This document shows positions 5,794 to 40,177 of a stretch of 64,000 nt of DNA, piece by piece. The stretch is from Halichondria panicea (lineage: Eukaryota; Porifera; Demospongiae; Suberitida; Halichondriidae). Position numbers and translations under genes: made by a program. Position 1 is the first letter of the stretch. Every line of letters begins with the position of its first letter. Under the pieces are notes generated by a model. It saw only the letters and a list, made by a program, of their open reading frames with translations. It was not told the origin of the DNA and did not search any database. The DNA is taken from positions 15,620,198-15,684,197 of the forward strand of contig NC_087377.1 of assembly GCF_963675165.1 (NCBI RefSeq). Reading direction: 5' to 3'.

Positions 5794-6321
5794 TTATGCG
5801 GCCATTTTTCAGCCCGGCCAAGTGTTGAGGAGACAAGAAGAGGCACTGAGAATGGAGGTAGAGGTACAGAGTACATTAGCTGGAAAATGCATTTGTGTCA
5901 TACTTTGTAGAGTCCCTTAAAGTCATTCAAGGTCAGCTATAGTGTGTCCTATTTGAGGTGTGCAATGTACAATCATGTACGACCCCCCCCCCACACACAC
6001 ACACACACACCTTTAGGCGTACTATGCTGCTAAGAAGGCCACTTAGTGTGACTATGACCGTGTGACTCTTTAACCCCTCAGTTCCATTAGGATAACTGGG
6101 GGCCGGAAAAGATAAGCCTACTATGCTGCTAAGAAAGAGAGGGGCCTCACGTAAACTGGCCACTCAGTGTGACTATGATCATGTGACTCTTTAACCCCTC
6201 AGTTCCCGAGCCCCACCCCTCACTGTCTGACTCGGAAGAGGAGATAGACTTTGTATTCTGGGAGAAGGCGTCCACCCTACCCTCGGACAAGACCCCAACC
6301 AAGGACCTGAACTTGTTATGA
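5794..6321 (+). pseudogene. Gene X 3' exons, copy 1
   Basis: Two exon-like pieces: 5794-5857 (after a CCCCCAG acceptor), reading AAIFQPGQVLRRQEEALRME, and a terminal exon 6203-6321 reading PEPHPSLSDSEEEIDFVF... and ending DLNLL-stop. Their phases do not join directly, so a small exon between them, possibly the AYYAAKK piece after CCTTTAG near 6016, may be missing from this reading. The same set recurs at 12832, 22377 and 29293, each ending tail-to-tail with a kelch gene about 200 bp away. The family is not recognised. Upstream exons could not be assigned, so this may be a 3' fragment rather than a working gene. Confidence 0.45.
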
Positions 6322-31428: not shown

Positions 31429-31516
31429 CTAAAATCGATACCAACATTAATAGACGGATATGATTTTTTCGTTAGGGTTACAGTTAGCTGAAACGTAAAA
31501 CACATAATGTACTTAT

Positions 31517-33233
31517 AACACCTTCTATTTTGAACTCGGATTTTCCATTTTACTTTTTCCTTGCATAATTACCCTATATTTGTTATCACTCGAATTTTTT
31601 TATAAATATCACCTTGAAGTGATACACACATTTATAATTATGGTATCGCTTGTCATGAACATTTTGGTCAGTAGCTCAACCTGTTACCTAAAATCCATAA
31701 TTTTTATAATTTAAATGATGTAACTATATAGTGTGAATTTTGTGAAAATTTGAAAATGTAGCTAGTTTCTGGGTAGTGAAAAAATTAATCAACAATTGTA
31801 TAGACAACAATTTATGCTTCCAAATAACGCTTAATTATGCAATGGCACTTTCTTCATTCAGAATAGCGGATGCGTGGAAGACACCTATATACCTGCATGG
31901 GAGTATATATGGATGTGAGATAGAGAACAGTTAGAGTAGAGTAATCACACATGACATTATAATTCGAAGCTCACACATAATTATTAGTGCACTGTCTGTG
32001 TTAACCCAAACAATTTCAGGGGTAATAATTTGAATTCCTTGAAATTTCAAGCCAAATACTAACTGTAATGTTTCAAAGATCATTGCTATACTAAAATACT
32101 TGGCTTGAAATTTCAAGGCAAACTGTAGATGTTCAATAATTATTGCAGTACTCATAATTCTCAAGCTAAGTGATAATATAATTATAACTGTTATAATACA
32201 CACATTTTTCAATGATCAAAGCTATAATTATAGTTCTCAAAGTGCTTGGCTTGAAATTTCAAGGTTTTTAACCAATATAGCAATTATAATACTGTAAAGC
32301 AGTCAAGTAATTATGTATTTTGTTGGAATTATTGTAACTATAATTATACAATTATTTATCAAAAAGTAATCTTAACATCCATTAATTAACAGTTTTCTCA
32401 ATTGAGGACAGTTGCTTCAATAGAGCTTGTGTTTCGTTGTTTTCCAGTGCAAGGGCACTCCGTCCATTCTTGACAGCAGATGAAGATACTTTCCCTGGAT
32501 GAGTGTATGCACGTGAGATGTTGCACAGTAATCCAGGCATTACATGTACATGCACATGAGTCTTTTGAACATCAAGTTAACTTCCTAACCATGCAAACCA
32601 TACACATGTCTTGAAATTTCAAGCCTGATACATCATAACTATAAACGCAAATTCCCAAAGTGCTTGAAATGTCAATGACTATTGTACGTATAATTATCCT
32701 GTCTGCAAAGAACTAGCTGTGCTGTTGTGGCTTGAAATTTCAAGGATGTACCTTGCCTCGAACCCAGGCCGCAGGGAGGCCTGGTTTAGGCAAGGATGTA
32801 CCGTATATGCTTTATCAGGAGCCGCGGCTACTAAATGTTTCGAAGGAGGCTACAATTAGAGAGAGGCCACTGTTCAAGAGTGGCCTTTATTAGCTCCAGC
32901 TAATTCAACTTGTTATCAAAAGTTATTTTCACCTGCATAAAACTTAAACTCTGCCATGAGAAAGACTTTGTGAAGCACTAACAAGCAGTTACCTGTACCT
33001 AGTAGCTACGTAAATCTAGCTAGCTGGTAGTCTAGTATTGTTTTAGCTGCCACATGCAGAAATGCTAGAGTCAAAGTTCACTGAGGCTACTATTTGAGAG
33101 CGGCTACTAAAATTAGTTTCATTTTGCTAGCAAGGGAGGCTACTATTTGAGTGCGGGCCTTTATACAAGAGCGGCCTCTGATCGAGCATAATGCTGTAAT
33201 TATTGTACAGAGATTCATTACATGATCTTTACC
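31517..33233. repeat. Left arm of inverted-repeat element
   Basis: Contains five exact CTTGAAATTTCAAG palindromes and one variant, the last exon of the methyltransferase gene (32382-32494) and an embedded MITE (32800-33190) that also occurs alone at 61661-62046. Carries the empty site for the piggyBac-like insertion in the other arm (ACGCTTAATTATGC near 31830). Confidence 0.9.
32038..32744. promoter_or_regulatory. Cluster of 14-bp palindromes, left arm
   Basis: CTTGAAATTTCAAG occurs exactly at 32038, 32104, 32250, 32610 and 32731, with a variant (CTTGAAATGTCAAT) at 32663. Several sites share flanking GTGCTTGG. Such a cluster of a perfect 14-mer cannot be chance in this length. Candidate binding sites for the element's own ParB-like protein or a transposase; this is inference. 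Confidence 0.7.
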
Positions 33234-36200
33234 ATACTAAGGATGACCTTTTTTGCAAATTCTCTTTAAAGGATCTTTACCATACTAACATAATGCAGGA
33301 TGACCTTTTTGCAAATTATCCTTAAAGGATCTTTACCAGATGTTAACAATACTTACGATTCCCACTCAAAGGATCGAAGACCCATTGCCCAGGTGATGTT
33401 AGTAGTTTAATGAGTTCCTGATACAGCATTGGTTTTGGTCTTGCCCTGCCTTGAGGTGTATTGATAGGCTCATCCATAGCTACTGTTAAAAGGTTGCCCA
33501 CAAACTCTGTTTTCTTAGCAAAGAAAGGGTACTCATTGCAAGAAGACCATTGCCCAATCACCATTGGTGTTATAGTGTTTTGAAGATCACACCCTGTGTA
33601 CGTATCTGTATATGTAAACAAAATGTAGTGGCTTTTTGTGTTAAAATGTAGTATAGGTGTACTCATACAATATAAATTTATTGTAAGTACATACTATAAT
33701 TATATCACCTTTGCTTGCAGCGCTGGTGTCTTGCATGTATGCTGTTTGTGCTTTGCAATCTTGCTGCTGCAACTCCAGGTCTTGTGGTGGGGAAATTACA
33801 ACTACTGCAAAGGACGATAGGCCCAGGGCAATGTTGGTAGATCTCACTAGGCGTACAATTGTCGTTACTTCTGTGCACGACCAGTCCTGTATGAGATTTA
33901 CACAGGTGAACGTGGTACATCATTGTATAATCATGTATGTATACGTACGTAACCTACATTGTGTAGATGCTTGCATACCATTGATTCTGTAAAGCTATAA
34001 TACGTACATACCCCAACGAATGTTGCCTTTTATATGTTATTCTAATGATGTGCTGTAATATAAAATTAGCAAACTAATTACTTACCTCTGGTGTGTCGAG
34101 GATGGTGAGGTGCAGACCACTGCACTGCAGACTCCCAAAGCCATCCAGTATCTCTCTCGTACTGACCGTGATCACGTTCGCATTTATAATAACCGCGAAA
34201 CTGTTGTCATAACTGACATGTAGGCCGTCTGTGACGCTAGTTGGTTGTTCTATGGATTTGTTTAGTATAGCTTGCTTTGCTTGGGTACAGAAGGAGCAAA
34301 ACGTTTGGGGAACATTGCTCTTTTTGAAACAGAGGGAAGTAAACTGTGCCAAGTTTTCGTCAGATGTGTGCGTAGGGTAAAGCTGCAGTGCTTCCTCCCA
34401 AGAGCCGATGTCGAGTTGCGTCATGAAGGCCAATTTAATCTCTTTCATTTTTTTTATGACTTTGCACTTTTGGCTTAGGTCTTTAAGCGACAACTCTCCA
34501 CATTGAACTTCCTGTAAAAGGTTTCGTCTTTCTTCCTCTTCCAACCCTCGAAGCGGCTTAAAATTAACTCCTTTGCAACTAATTTTTGAGATTTTAGCTA
34601 CTTGTCTCTGCCCTCGTGACAGCTTTTGGTTTTTGAGGTCGCACAATTCATATTGAGCAAAAATCTCTAAAACACAATCATACTCAACGTCGGGTAACGA
34701 AGCCAGGAAGAAGACCATTGAGTATTCGAGCTGTTGCACCTGTATACAAACGTTATGAACTAGTTAACCCGAGATACGTACGTACATACATTATGCAAAT
34801 GCCTTATTATGTATGACAAAGGTATGACAATGTACCGTATTTACTTGATTAAATAAACGCAGGGTAAAAGAAACTATTTACGATGGCAGCGCAGATATCA
34901 ACACAGAGGGAAAACAATACTCCTATTATGACTTAATGTTATTTTAAGCTAAGAAATAGATTTAAGCTGAGACAGCAGTCAAGAAGAGCACAATAACTGC
35001 TGCTGCGCAAGAGTTTGGAGTAGACATGACAATAAACCCCCTTTTCGAATAAACGCCCTCTCTGCTAGGAGATAACGCCCGGGCGTTTAACCAAGTAAAT
35101 ACAGTACGTGTGTAAGCACGAGTTTGTCACTCACCTGCAGGCTGAGTAGACTAGCACATGCCTTTCGCCACTCTGTCTTGCTACTCCTCCCAGCGTACCT
35201 GCTTCTGCATATCATTACCTACATAACGAAAATAGTTTCCTTTTACTAACTACTAGTTTAGGTGTTGCTATGTATCCGTACATCATAAATGCGCGCTTAC
35301 CTGATCTTGTGTTGTCATTTTGTGAGTAAGATCGGTTGCCCTGTTGTGTTTCGAAGCTATCATTAAGGCCACGTCGTCATCGACACCTGTATAAACTGCT
35401 ACTAGCCTTGTCTGAAGGCTTTCTCTTGGGTTTTCGACAGCCAGCTCCTGAAGTGCAATTCTGCTATGATTGCCCCCAATCGTTTCATACTTGTACAGTG
35501 CTGGATGTTTTTTATCGAATTCTTGACCGTCATCGAGGCATGGTATACCAATAATGGGTGACACCGTACAAATTTGGTTCGCCATTATTTCGTCTTTCAG
35601 AGTGTTGATAAAAACTCTATCTGGGGGTCTCAAACATCTGCTCATTCTAGGCTCCATTAGACAGGAAATGGGAATCTCATAGCACCCTATAACATTGACC
35701 GATTGCAATTTGCATAAACTTAATTACTTATTGAGCTCACCAGTATAGTACTGTATGATGTCATTGTCACTGTCTTCATCAATTTTTTTCTTCTTTGATG
35801 GTCCAAGACCTGTGCTTGGTGAAGTATGCTTACCAAGCTGCACTAGTGGCTCATCCTGGTACTTGCCTATAACGATACATGGAAAAAAAGCTCTCAGTTT
35901 AGTGTAGTTAATTTATAGTTATTTACGTAAGCTGTCAAAACTCCGAAAATTATAAAACCTGCATGCATGCATGCACTAGGTGATTCATGAAAACCATGTC
36001 ACGCGCTTACCAGTGTTGCTGTCAATTCTTGGAAGAACTAGCCGAGTCCATTCTTCATGGAACTGCGTGGCGCTCTTTGCATTCTTAAACTGTCTTGAAA
36101 ATGGTGATTTCTCCCATGTAAAGTCTACCAGTGACTTCTCTCTTGCTGCTTCTTGATCCAGTAACTTGATCTGCATACATTAGTCTAATACTTGCATGTG

Positions 36201-36364
36201 CCATGCATGCAGTGTATCTGTATCTACCGATATACATTTATATAGAAAAAGCTTACCCTGATCTTGTCGTTGCTAGCTTTAACTGCAAACACAGGACCAT
36301 TAGTTTCCTGTGTCGCATTCTTCACGATATGAATGTAGCTGTCTTTGACATCAAAATACCACTC
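32382..36364 (-). CDS. ParB-like domain fused to beta-class DNA methyltransferase
   Basis: Nine exons: 36364-36257, 36170-36011, 35866-35741, 35686-35301, 35218-35135, 34739-34086, 33886-33709, 33593-33357, 32494-32382; 681 codons with all phases matching and no stop. The true start is not found: exon 36364 follows an acceptor. Residues about 136-255 resemble a ParB/sulfiredoxin domain (GGNHSRIALQEL; DDDVALMIASKHN). Residues about 460-681 follow the beta-class order of DNA amino-methyltransferases: a motif IV region (HLTILDTPE), then a Lys-rich middle, then motif I (GQWVFDPLSGN) and GRSALALEN. Motif IV is DTPE, not DPPY/W, and the Gly-rich loop after motif I is altered, so catalysis is doubtful. 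KKKK near residue 118 could direct nuclear import. Bacterial and phage ParB-methylase fusions are known; this spliced version is eukaryotic. Confidence 0.72.
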
Positions 36365-36810
36365 CTAATTGTTTGCTGGCATTTTCAACTCAATAATAAT
36401 GAAAGATTACTTTTAGTGAATAATAATGTTGTACAGTATCATTTATCAACAGAAAACTCGTACTCTTGTACTGTACGTTTTATCATATCCTTCTTTTATC
36501 AGCAATAGACACATGTAACAGTACATAATGTCATGTATCAATATCTTGATACATGACAACATGTAGTATGGTGTTTGTTTAACATCCGAGCATAATTGTT
36601 GTGTCTGTTAAACATTATGGTACTTACATACATATATATTATTTTATGCAGACTCTTATACCAACTTGAGGAAATGAGGTGCCAGCAACGTAAGTTATTA
36701 TTTGCTGAAAATGTTTGTCCACTCAATAATAACCCTTGGGTGTACACATTCATACATAGTGCGAGTATTTTTTAAACTACTACATTACATGCAGTAGCAA
36801 ATAATTATTT
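36365..36810. other. Stretch upstream of the ParB-methyltransferase exons
   Basis: No convincing first exon on the minus strand. A plus-strand piece near 36651-36690 has AG and GTAAGT ends but short, ambiguous coding. The missing 5' exon of the gene may lie here, in the hairpin, or beyond the right arm. Confidence 0.3.
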
Positions 36811-37537
36811 AACTTAATTGACCACCTTTATTGCTCACATACTTTGCCTAATACATTACAGGGAGCCCTTACTTATCACCCTCTAGTAGAATCTGTAAAC
36901 CTGTCGGTCAATTAGCTAAGCTAGTGTATACACATGTGCACCGGATTTGCTATTGTGACAACTTAATCGACCACCTTTATTGCATGCTCACATACTTTGC
37001 CTAATACATCACCTTCTAAGAGAATCTGTAAAGCTGTTGGTCAATTTTTTATTCTTAGCTAAGCTAGTGTATACACATATGCACCTTACAGAGGATTTCT
37101 GGTTGGTTGGCAGAAGTTAAAAGTTGAAGTGCACTCAACCATGTGTTACTTTCTACTAAAGCAATTAGTGGTCATGGCTGACTGCACTTCAACTTTTAAT
37201 TCTGCCAACCAACCTGAAATCCTCTGTAGCAAATCTGGTGCACATGTGTATACATTAGCTTAGCTAATTGACCCACAGGTTTACAGATTCTACTAGAGGG
37301 TGATAAGTAAGGGCTCCCTGTAATGTATTAGGCAAAGTATGTGAGCAATAAAGGTGGTGGATTAAGTTGAATAATTATTTGCTATTCACAATAGCAAATC
37401 CGTTGCACATGTGTATACACTAGTCTAGCTAATTGACCAACAGGTTTACAGATTCTACTAGAGGGTGATAAGTAAGGGCTTCTTGTAATGTATTAGGCAA
37501 AGTACATATGTGAGCAATAAAGGTGGTGGATTAAAGT
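36811..37537. repeat. Nested long hairpin with internal tandem units
   Basis: A fold-back centred near 37160. Each arm holds two copies of a unit with TTTATTGCTCACATACTTTG, AGAATCTGTAAACC and GTGTATACACATGTGCAC. Probably a MITE with internally duplicated arms that inserted inside the larger element. Confidence 0.75.
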
Positions 37538-38043
37538 AATTAATTAAAAAAGTAAGTAAAGATCATGTAATGAATCTCTGTACAATAATTACAGCATTAT
37601 GCTCGATCAGAGGCCGCTCTTGTATAAAGGCCCGCACTCAAATAGTAGCCTCCCTTGCTAGCAAAATGAAACTAATTTTAGTAGCCGCTCTCAAATAGTA
37701 GCCTCAGTGAACTTTGACTCTAGCATTTCTGCATGTGGCAGCTAAAACAATACTAGACTACCAGCTAGCTAGATTTACGTAGCTACTAGGTACAGGTAAC
37801 TGCTTGTTAGTGCTTCACAAAGTCTTTCTCATGGCAGAGTTTAAGTTTTATGCAGGTGAAAATAACTTTTGATAACAAGTTGAATTAGCTGGAGCTAATA
37901 AAGGCCACTCTTGAACAGTGGCCTCTCTCTAATTGTAGCCTCCTTCGAAACATTTAGTAGCCGCGGCTCCTGATAAAGCATATACGGTACATCCTTGCCT
38001 AAACCAGGCCTCCCTGCGGCCTGGGTTCGAGGCAAGGTACATC

Positions 38044-38750
38044 CTTGAAATTTCAAGCCACAACAGCACAGCTAGTTCTTTGCAGACAGGATAATTATAC
38101 GTACAATAGTCATTGACATTTCAAGCACTTTGGGAATTTGCGTTTATAGTTATGATGTATCAGGCTTGAAATTTCAAGACATGTGTATGGTTTGCATGGT
38201 TAGGAAGTTAACTTGATGTTCAAAAGACTCATGTGCATGTACATGTAATGCCTGGATTACTGTGCAACATCTCACGTGCATACACTCATCCAGGGAAAGT
38301 ATCTTCATCTGCTGTCAAGAATGGACGGAGTGCCCTTGCACTGGAAAACAACGAAACACAAGCTCTATTGAAGCAACTGTCCTCAATTGAGAAAACTGTT
38401 AATTAATGGATGTTAAGATTACTTTTTGATAAATAATTGTATAATTATAGTTACAATAATTCCAACAAAATACATAATTACTTGACTGCTTTACAGTATT
38501 ATAATTGCTATATTGGTTAAAAACCTTGAAATTTCAAGCCAAGCACTTTGAGAACTATAATTATAGCTTTGATCATTGAAAAATGTGTGTATTATAACAG
38601 TTATAATTATATTATCACTTAGCTTGAGAATTATGAGTACTGCAATAATTATTGAACATCTACAGTTTGCCTTGAAATTTCAAGCCAAGTATTTTAGTAT
38701 AGCAATGATCTTTGAAACATTACAGTTAGTATTTGGCTTGAAATTTCAAG
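38044..38750. promoter_or_regulatory. Cluster of 14-bp palindromes, right arm
   Basis: Mirror of the left cluster: exact CTTGAAATTTCAAG at 38044, 38165, 38525, 38671 and 38737, variant at 38112. Confidence 0.7.
38294..38406 (+). pseudogene. Duplicate of methyltransferase last exon
   Basis: Identical 113-bp exon (KVSSSAVKNGRSALALEN... ending in TAA) in the right arm on the opposite strand, with no upstream exons. A by-product of the inverted repeat. Confidence 0.8.
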
Positions 38751-38957
38751 GAATTCAAATTATTACCCCTGAAATTGTTTGGGTTAACACAGACAGTGCA
38801 CTAATAATTATGTGTGAGCTTCGAATTATAATGTCATGTGTGATTACTCTACTCTAACTGTTCTCTATCTCACATCCATATATACTCCCATGCAGGTATA
38901 TAGGTGTCTTCCACGCATCCGCTATTCTGAATGAAGAAAGTGCCATTGCATAATTAA

Positions 38958-39859
38958 CCCTTTCCCCGCTTTAGCCGACTATAGTCGGCATGGCTACTGA
39001 TAAATTTCAAAAAATCATTGTGCACACTGTGTTGGAGCTATGCACACACTGCAAGTACCAGCACATGCGCATTGAGCTGCTCTTCCACGTGGTATTTTTA
39101 ATATTTTGCTTAGAGGTACGGTTCAATCAGAATTGTCGAAAGAAAAGTGACCGTTTTATAATTGCTACAAGATCTTTGTAGTACAACCTCAGGGAGGTTC
39201 TAGGGAAGCTAGAGAGTGAGAATATAGATGCTTATGGCCTTGTAGAGTGAGAGGACAGTGACTGAGATCATAGCTAGGTAGGAAGCTTCCTTTCAGAGGT
39301 CAAACTAAAAAGAAAGAGCCTGAGAATCCTGAGGAAGACACACTTGAGGTGGACCATCTTCCTGAACCTGGTAAGTCACTATAGAGTAGCATTTGTATAG
39401 TCTTGATAGCTTCACTATAGGTTTGTTTAGGCTAGTAAGTACAACAGTGGACATCATGAGCCACCATTGAACTTGTAAACCTGTGTGTAGGTGAAGAAAA
39501 TATTTCCCGGGAAAAGGGTGTCTGCCGATAGAACCTCAAATACAAGTTTCTGCAGATCATGATTGAGTCCTGAGTGAGCCATGTCACCATGAGAACATTC
39601 TGAACACTTATATCATGTGTTCAGTCACTTCGTAACATCATACAATATTGTTTGTGTACATAATTGTGAATTTTTGTTAACAATTGTTATTTGTGGGGTG
39701 GTGGTTGGTTGCTAGGCAACGATGATGATTCCATGAATGCGACAGGTCTGGTTCTACCTGTGGAACTTGTTATAAGTGTTTTTAATATACGGTTCATGAG
39801 TTATAAATTTTTTAAACAAAATATACAAATATTCACTTTTAATTAAAGCAGGGAAAGGG
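38958..39859. mobile_element. piggyBac-like element 2
   Basis: 902 bp, TTAA at 38954-38957 and 39860-39863. Ends CCCTTTCCCCGCTTTA against CCCTTTCCCTGCTTTA. The left arm of the host element keeps the empty site. Subterminal palindrome GCCGACTATAGTCGGC at about 38975. A short frame at 38990-39181 is not recognised; no transposase core. Confidence 0.9.
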
Positions 39860-40177
39860 TTAAGCGTTATTTGGAAGCATAAATTGTTGTCTATACAATT
39901 GTTGATTAATTTTTTCACTACCCAGAAACTAGCTACATTTTCAAATTTTCACAAAATTCACACTATATAGTTACATCATTTAAATTATAAAAATTATGGA
40001 TTTTAGGTAACAGGTTGAGCTACTGACCAAAATGTTCATGACAAGCGATACCATAATTATAAATGTGTGTATCACTTCAAGGTGATATTTATAAAAAAAT
40101 TCGAGTGATAACAAATATAGGGTAATTATGCAAGGAAAAAGTAAAATGGAAAATCCGAGTTCAAAATAGAAGGTGTT

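Follow-up and report, generated by a model that had tools for sequence, protein, structure and literature searches.

The window analysed here is a stretch of 64,000 nucleotides from the sponge Halichondria panicea (contig NC_087377.1, forward-strand positions 15,620,198 to 15,684,197), and at its positions 31517–40177 lies an inverted-repeat element. It belongs to a family of mobile-looking sponge elements whose gene codes for a ParB-fold protein joined to a degraded DNA methyltransferase. The family itself, the modelled fold of exon D, the arms of the element, a terminus shared between copies and, in several lineages of the family, the position and AAATTT core of a set of short palindromes are shown here. 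The reading that we favour, at a probability of about 0.5, is cognate self-recognition, in which the lineage-specific palindromes, found mainly in the last intron of the gene, would be sites for the element's own ParB-fold protein. A first-pass annotation of this DNA had proposed a ParB-methyltransferase fusion with parS-like palindromes in both arms and, from these, a self-recognition or segregation-like system; that interpretation is partly supported.

The gene lies on the minus strand, where nine exons with GT..AG borders join to 685 open codons and a stop (contigs are denoted by C and a number, C1 being the one that carries the window element):

36257..36364, minus strand: exon A, the first exon found
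36011..36170, minus strand: exon B
35741..35866, minus strand: exon C
35301..35686, minus strand: exon D, predicted ParB N-domain fold
35135..35218, minus strand: exon E
34086..34739, minus strand: exon F, middle region and methyltransferase-like start, with DTPE at the motif IV position
33709..33886, minus strand: exon G
33357..33605, minus strand: exon H, with DPLSGN at the methyltransferase motif I position
32495..33356, minus strand: last intron (H–I), a palindrome-bearing position in other lineages too
32382..32494, minus strand: exon I, the last exon, within the left arm
38294..38406, plus strand: mirror of exon I in the right arm, with a protein match at C1:15658490-15658600

The spliced gene had been annotated as intact, and its open frame bears this out in part; a first exon with a start codon was not found and is expected farther upstream of exon A, so that intactness is unproven. 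In the NCBI protein P0029, a paralog on C6, the ParB exon is joined to the next exon at the equivalent place.

Exon D was shown by fold comparison to match ParB N-domains, as the initial annotation had anticipated; a model of this exon made without an alignment was uninformative (pLDDT 35). Pfam recognised the ParB part neither in the raw open reading frames (ORFs) nor in the spliced protein, and profile searches of the genome with PF01555 and PF02195 gave no match, a result that would have wrongly implied that there is no family. The 685-aa protein had no match among 5.8 billion proteins at E ≤ 1e-3, nor did residues 133–685 at E ≤ 10. With exon D alone, a query alignment of three rows retrieved 158 proteins at E ≤ 10; 120 of them were listed, and 90 went into the alignment A2. 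GERR, the nucleotide-binding motif of ParB, occurs in none of the 91 rows of the exon D alignment, 89 of which have GG[QNLHK][HN] in its place. Phage ParB-like proteins align well with the sponge domain (GNHT versus GNHS). No relatives were found in viral contigs (two scans) or in bacterial and archaeal genome contigs (one scan), and a tblastn search of plasmids gave four weak matches, all to recombinase genes. A 17-mer searched in viral contigs had two matches.

The C-terminal part is, on profile comparison, homologous to beta-class N6/N4 methyltransferases over the motif I region: hhalign of the C-terminus with a pair of phage beta-class enzymes gave P 6.8e-8, against 0.40–0.65 for five shuffles, and PF01555 reached E 0.014 and 15.8 bits on the spliced protein, below the family cut-off of 26.7. 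The catalytic motifs of the beta class are DPPY and DPxxGxG; the window protein has DTPE and DPLSGN at these positions, neither of which conforms, and five paralogous lineages have DATSES, DATESG, DATQSG, DATTGSG and DITSGN as their motif I. Since motif I is degraded in six aligned sponge sequences, methylation activity has probably been lost across the family. The proposed fusion is confirmed, with two corrections: Pfam is blind to its ParB part, for which a fold comparison was needed, and its methyltransferase motifs are degenerate.

Alignment of the window to itself gave two pairs of segments that are 100% complementary, 31826–33232 with 37556–38962 (1,407 nt) and 31517–31834 with 39860–40177 (318 nt); each arm measures 1,716 bp once an insert in the right arm is discounted:

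31517..33232, plus strand: left inverted-repeat arm (1,716 bp), which includes exon I, the larger part of the H–I intron and the palindromes
37556..40177, minus strand: right arm, the left arm repeated in inverted orientation and interrupted by a 902-bp insert
38958..39859, no strand: 902-bp insert in the right arm only, with TTAA on both sides and ends CCCTTTCCC/GGGAAAGGG; by resemblance, presumably a piggyBac-like miniature inverted-repeat transposable element
31517..31541, plus strand: terminal 25 bp, AACACCTTCTATTTTGAACTCGGAT, with the same terminus at C12:4433567
40153..40177, minus strand: terminal 25 bp, AACACCTTCTATTTTGAACTCGGAT, inverted
36795..37546, no strand: inverted array of ~165-bp units, which are tandem in the C12 copy

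The edge AACACCTTCTATTTTGAACTCGGAT is base-exact at three ends (left and right on C1, and left on C12 at 4433567) with unrelated flanks each time, and terminal inverted repeats with such a defined end are a feature of TIR (terminal inverted repeat) DNA transposons; mobility of the element seems probable from these shared termini. Uninterrupted paralogs of the flanks support the edges further: on the left, four of six diverge from the window exactly at 31516 and the other two a few bases earlier, and on the right both of two diverge at 40177. No target-site duplication was seen at the edges of the window element. In a paralogous locus, the positions matching the two edges are ~8 kb apart, which indicates that the insertion came with a deletion or was followed by later rearrangement. 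A long inverted repeat could also arise as an assembly artefact from a folded-back read, with which the 100% identity of the arms over 1,716 bp and the lack of a right arm in the examined stretch of the C12 copy (ending at C12:4449800) would agree; the TTAA-flanked insert, however, sits in the right arm alone and the two edges at 31516 and 40177 border different flanks, and on these grounds we rejected an artefact as highly improbable. Elsewhere, C8:5500619–5500642 is an exact, solitary copy of the terminal 24 bp of the element, with 1.2 kb around it devoid of further element homology, which may be a footprint or a shared motif, and window positions 32799–33190 are a ~390-bp repeat within the arm that has more than 30 relatives genome-wide (a lower bound), mostly 85–88% identical.

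Each arm holds five exact copies of the palindrome CTTGAAATTTCAAG and one variant with two mismatches, confirming the annotated inverted arms with their palindrome clusters; at ≤2 mismatches there are 12 sites in the window, compared with a mean of 0.41 and a maximum of 3 in 100 window shuffles. Of the six left-arm sites, the variant and two exact copies lie in the last intron and the other three beyond the last exon; the right arm mirrors them all:

32038..32051, no strand: palindrome CTTGAAATTTCAAG, downstream of the last exon
32104..32117, no strand: palindrome CTTGAAATTTCAAG, downstream of the last exon
32250..32263, no strand: palindrome CTTGAAATTTCAAG, downstream of the last exon
32610..32623, no strand: palindrome CTTGAAATTTCAAG, last intron
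32663..32676, no strand: variant palindrome (2 mismatches), last intron
32731..32744, no strand: palindrome CTTGAAATTTCAAG, last intron
38044..38057, no strand: palindrome CTTGAAATTTCAAG, right-arm mirror
38112..38125, no strand: variant palindrome, right-arm mirror
38165..38178, no strand: palindrome CTTGAAATTTCAAG, right-arm mirror
38525..38538, no strand: palindrome CTTGAAATTTCAAG, right-arm mirror
38671..38684, no strand: palindrome CTTGAAATTTCAAG, right-arm mirror
38737..38750, no strand: palindrome CTTGAAATTTCAAG, right-arm mirror

Because the left arm contains the last exon and the right arm its mirror, the palindromes present in both arms are one cluster duplicated and not independent evidence. 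Genome-wide counts of repeated words are lower bounds; exact CTTGAAATTTCAAG occurs at least 14 times in the 131 Mb genome, with 10 copies in the window element, three in a second copy of the element on C12, and one on C15 that is solitary and has no related sequence around it. Among the copies listed, 13 of 14 therefore lie in element copies and not scattered independently of the gene. A control pattern was found nowhere in the genome, and the rough expectation for exact CTTGAAATTTCAAG from base composition is ~1.2.

In the C12 copy (left end 4433567) the gene has two frameshifting deletions, both of exactly 8 bp (within C12:4438419–4439603 and C12:4437988–4438364), and the arm has a 2.6-kb insert (C12:4434071–4436673) with an A-rich end that looks like a long interspersed nuclear element. 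Comparison of the window gene with this copy gave 11 synonymous changes in 447 sites and 4 nonsynonymous changes in 1,611, and the ratio of ~0.1 indicates that the protein was under constraint. A third copy, at C1:8149665–8151494, contains stop codons, and no CTTGAAATTTCAAG match at ≤2 mismatches was found in the surrounding 9.9 kb.

Beyond these three copies, relatives turned up when the genome was searched at the protein level, on eight contigs in all at E ≤ 1e-3 (C1, C3, C4, C6, C7, C8, C14 and C17), with 27–38% identity in the ParB and middle exons and 71% in one N-terminal exon on C17; weaker middle-exon matches were found on C11 and C12. Lineages were grouped by identity, and the 3' ends of five together with that of the window make up six lineages; the last introns at C4:2.47M, C8:3.31M, C11, C12:5.02M, C3:1.90M and C1:9.67M are outside this count. 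AAATTT-centred palindromes in the last intron are clear in four of the six, weak in one and lacking in one. Besides the window, the clear cases are C8:5.63 Mb, with TACCTAAATTTAGGTA twice and a variant, C14:4.82 Mb, with TGTACAAATTTGTACA four times, and C1:8.42 Mb, with the 14-bp core of the C14 word three times. The outer four bases differ by lineage (CTTG/CAAG, ACCT/AGGT and GTAC/GTAC) with dyad symmetry and the AAATTT core constant, a symmetric change such as a dimeric DNA-binding protein would impose. AAATTT-centred palindromes of at least 14 bp number 11 in the four last introns (2,663 bp) versus one in 135,882 bp of background, and that one sat in a piece fetched because of its palindrome. 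Among 215,613 bp scanned for 14-bp palindromes repeated within 500 bp, one case was found besides the elements and low-complexity words, inside a local inverted duplication. The recurrence of such palindromes in the same intron in four of six paralogous lineages lends support to the self-recognition half of the first-pass annotation.

The C8 word is paired 76 bp apart at six loci, with one member carrying 1 mismatch in three of the six, and 61 bp apart at a seventh (C6:1.19 Mb); one further single near-match lies elsewhere. Wherever the middle exon matched too (C8 twice, C11 and C12) the pair lies ~1.3 kb from it. The pairs on C3 and at C1:17.49 Mb are embedded in sequence like the 3' end of the C8 gene (98% and 90%), and the protein search gave no ParB or middle-exon match close by. 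The C3 copy is too similar to C8 for a conservation comparison. At C1:17.49 Mb the palindromes have 0 of 46 bases changed and the intron outside them 17 of 341, but their near neighbourhood is also well kept (1/120). In the C6:1.19 Mb intron, 191 of 376 aligned bases are changed, yet two palindromes are present with 0 and 1 mismatch; in the alignment itself, 8 of 46 palindrome positions differ, the first C8 site being without a counterpart there.

Several observations weigh against the palindromes being sites of the encoded protein, whose binding to them is putative. No helix-turn-helix or other DNA-reading domain was identified in it; a Pfam search of a fragment covering the beginning of exon F gave no more than a chance-level row. 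At C6:5.85 Mb, there are only two 10-bp cores, CTAAATTTAG, with imperfect flanks, and the last 3' splice site was not identified; the close pair C7:4.0 Mb and C1:8.26 Mb, counted as one lineage, has no AAATTT-centred palindrome in 2.3–2.5 kb of 3' end, and its last intron looks short. C14 and C1:8.42 Mb share one word and may be one lineage, which reduces the independent words to three, and copies within one intron can be local duplications (the C14 intron copies have a 71-bp spacing). Two of five exact sites in the C12 copy are disrupted by indels and, counted as substitutions relative to the window, its palindromes differ at 3 of 84 bases, compared with 45 of 1,106 for the remainder of the arm, a count inflated by misplacement of the terminal 25 bp by the aligner; the C12 palindromes are thus not better kept, but the C12 gene has its two frameshifts.

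The distribution of GTACAAATTTGTAC is a further point of this kind. It occurs at least 41 times genome-wide, with 7 copies in last introns (C14 and C1:8.42M), 8 in an array upstream of the C14 gene and 26 elsewhere; 26 of the 41 listed are thus away from the two genes and the array, some clustered without a nearby protein match. Such a distribution would suit palindromes that belong to mobile DNA, as sites of a transposase or as a small selfish repeat, and have no connection with the ParB-like protein, which would then be a passenger or come from a host gene. DNA transposons commonly have subterminal repeats, and a transposase was not recognised here: ten further element ORFs had no Pfam family at E ≤ 0.01 (small ORFs being covered in part), and Pfam matched none in the ParB-methyltransferase gene itself. 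What this explanation does not predict is the same intron in four lineages, the common AAATTT core with its symmetrical outer-base change, or the company that 13 of the 14 listed CTTGAAATTTCAAG keep with the gene, and we consider it rather unlikely. The array (C14:4831810–4831971) is iteron-like, with eight exact GTACAAATTTGTAC whose starts are 10–27 bp apart, ~5 kb upstream of the C14 ParB exon; further clusters, with no ParB-methyltransferase match nearby, are at C3:400993–401444, C6:2289862–2289975, C7:5738793–5738835 and C11:5123549–5123637.

The identical last-intron palindromes might instead act in the transcript, pairing with one another into stems close to the 3' splice site and so governing whether the last exon is retained. 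Two palindrome copies do pair in the minimum-energy structure of each of four folded introns, with further copies pairing locally, and the energies lie 2.2, 5.0, 5.6 and 5.9 standard deviations below 40 shuffles, a result that weighs against the favoured reading. Repeated palindromes, however, can always pair with their own copies, so that pairing is automatic, and a stem needs no palindromy of each copy; moreover, three of six window sites lie beyond the last exon and the eight-copy C14 array lies far upstream. An RNA role is in our judgement improbable.

For cognate self-recognition, the simplest candidate binder is the protein encoded around the sites, its fold being that of clamps that load on palindromes. 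By analogy, it would bind the palindromes as a dimer via whatever DNA-reading part is present and might cluster on them as ParB, VirB and SopB do on their sites; the outcome would be self-recognition in cis, either as control of its own transcription or by shielding its own copies against silencing. With the protein, the outer four base pairs of the sites would change as well, which would keep each lineage private. Autoregulation or anti-silencing appears favoured over partition, and the evidence does not separate the first two. A fuller proposal, of a eukaryotic ParB-parS-like system in which a ParB-fold clamp with a dead methyltransferase recognises only its own co-diverging, private AAATTT palindromes and probably escapes host silencing, is possible but doubtful.

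The segregation half of the original interpretation went unsupported. A ParB fold with clustered palindromes beside its gene recalls SopB and its repeated sites (excerpt of PMC7205306) and could in principle provide a centromere for the element; a chromosomal element, however, needs no partition of its own, and the absence of GERR from all 91 rows also speaks against it; nor was a helix-turn-helix identified. We regard this as very unlikely.

ParB clamps with palindromic sites have been described in bacteria, plasmids and phages, and clustered palindromic sites near the gene, as in ParABS, are found in four of the six sponge lineages. By comparison with ParB, Noc and VirB clamps and their parS-like palindromes, the sponge gene is animal and nuclear, with introns and with sites in the last of them, and its protein has GG[Q/N][H/N] instead of GERR and a methyltransferase-like C-terminus. 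SopB of F and its N15 relative are 49% identical and have different sites (sopC and IR1-4), and F SopB works only with its own (excerpt of PMC7205306); the likeness is of related proteins with differing sites, whereas those systems serve prokaryotic replicons and have a ParA-type partner, and the sponge element is chromosomal. ParB-methylase fusions of bacteria and phages likewise combine the two domains in one protein, the difference being the degraded motif I of the six aligned sponge sequences; one from B. cereus is reported to nick DNA non-specifically (excerpt of PMC5512222). VANC proteins of Arabidopsis VANDAL transposons are anti-silencing factors whose targets are often tandem repeats that vary considerably between related elements (excerpt of PMC5735166). 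Both are transposon protein families with repeated, element-varying targets, known as such for VANC and proposed for the sponge, although the proteins are unrelated and the ParB fold and intronic site position are new. VirB is a ParB relative turned anti-silencer (excerpt of PMC10770331). SopB of F and N15 and VANC are known analogues of protein–site co-divergence, and VirB is one of a ParB-derived anti-silencer. The N4-methylcytosine (4mC) enzyme of rotifers is reportedly the beta-class N4CMT. Bdelloid rotifers have bacterial-type DNA modification, 4mC, in an animal genome (excerpt of PMC8885841); that system lays a mark, whereas the sponge protein has degraded motifs and an attached ParB domain.

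The left flank of the element is part of a repeated kinase-Kelch gene family. Window positions 1–31516 and C1:15.4–17.4 Mb hold this recently amplified family, whose repeated units consist of a 5' kinase half and a 3' Kelch half; Kelch parts lie near 6113, 13284, 22591 and 29518, and the flank has more than 40 matches on C1. The unit adjoining the element stops at 31516, its kinase half missing.

No nuclear animal family that combines the ParB fold with a degraded methyltransferase and with lineage-private palindromes at one conserved position in the gene was among the open-licence papers listed, mostly as titles and abstract openings. The sponge family offers a natural set of diverged protein–site pairs, with which ParB-type clamps in animal nuclei, and whether a transposon uses such a clamp against silencing, become directly testable.

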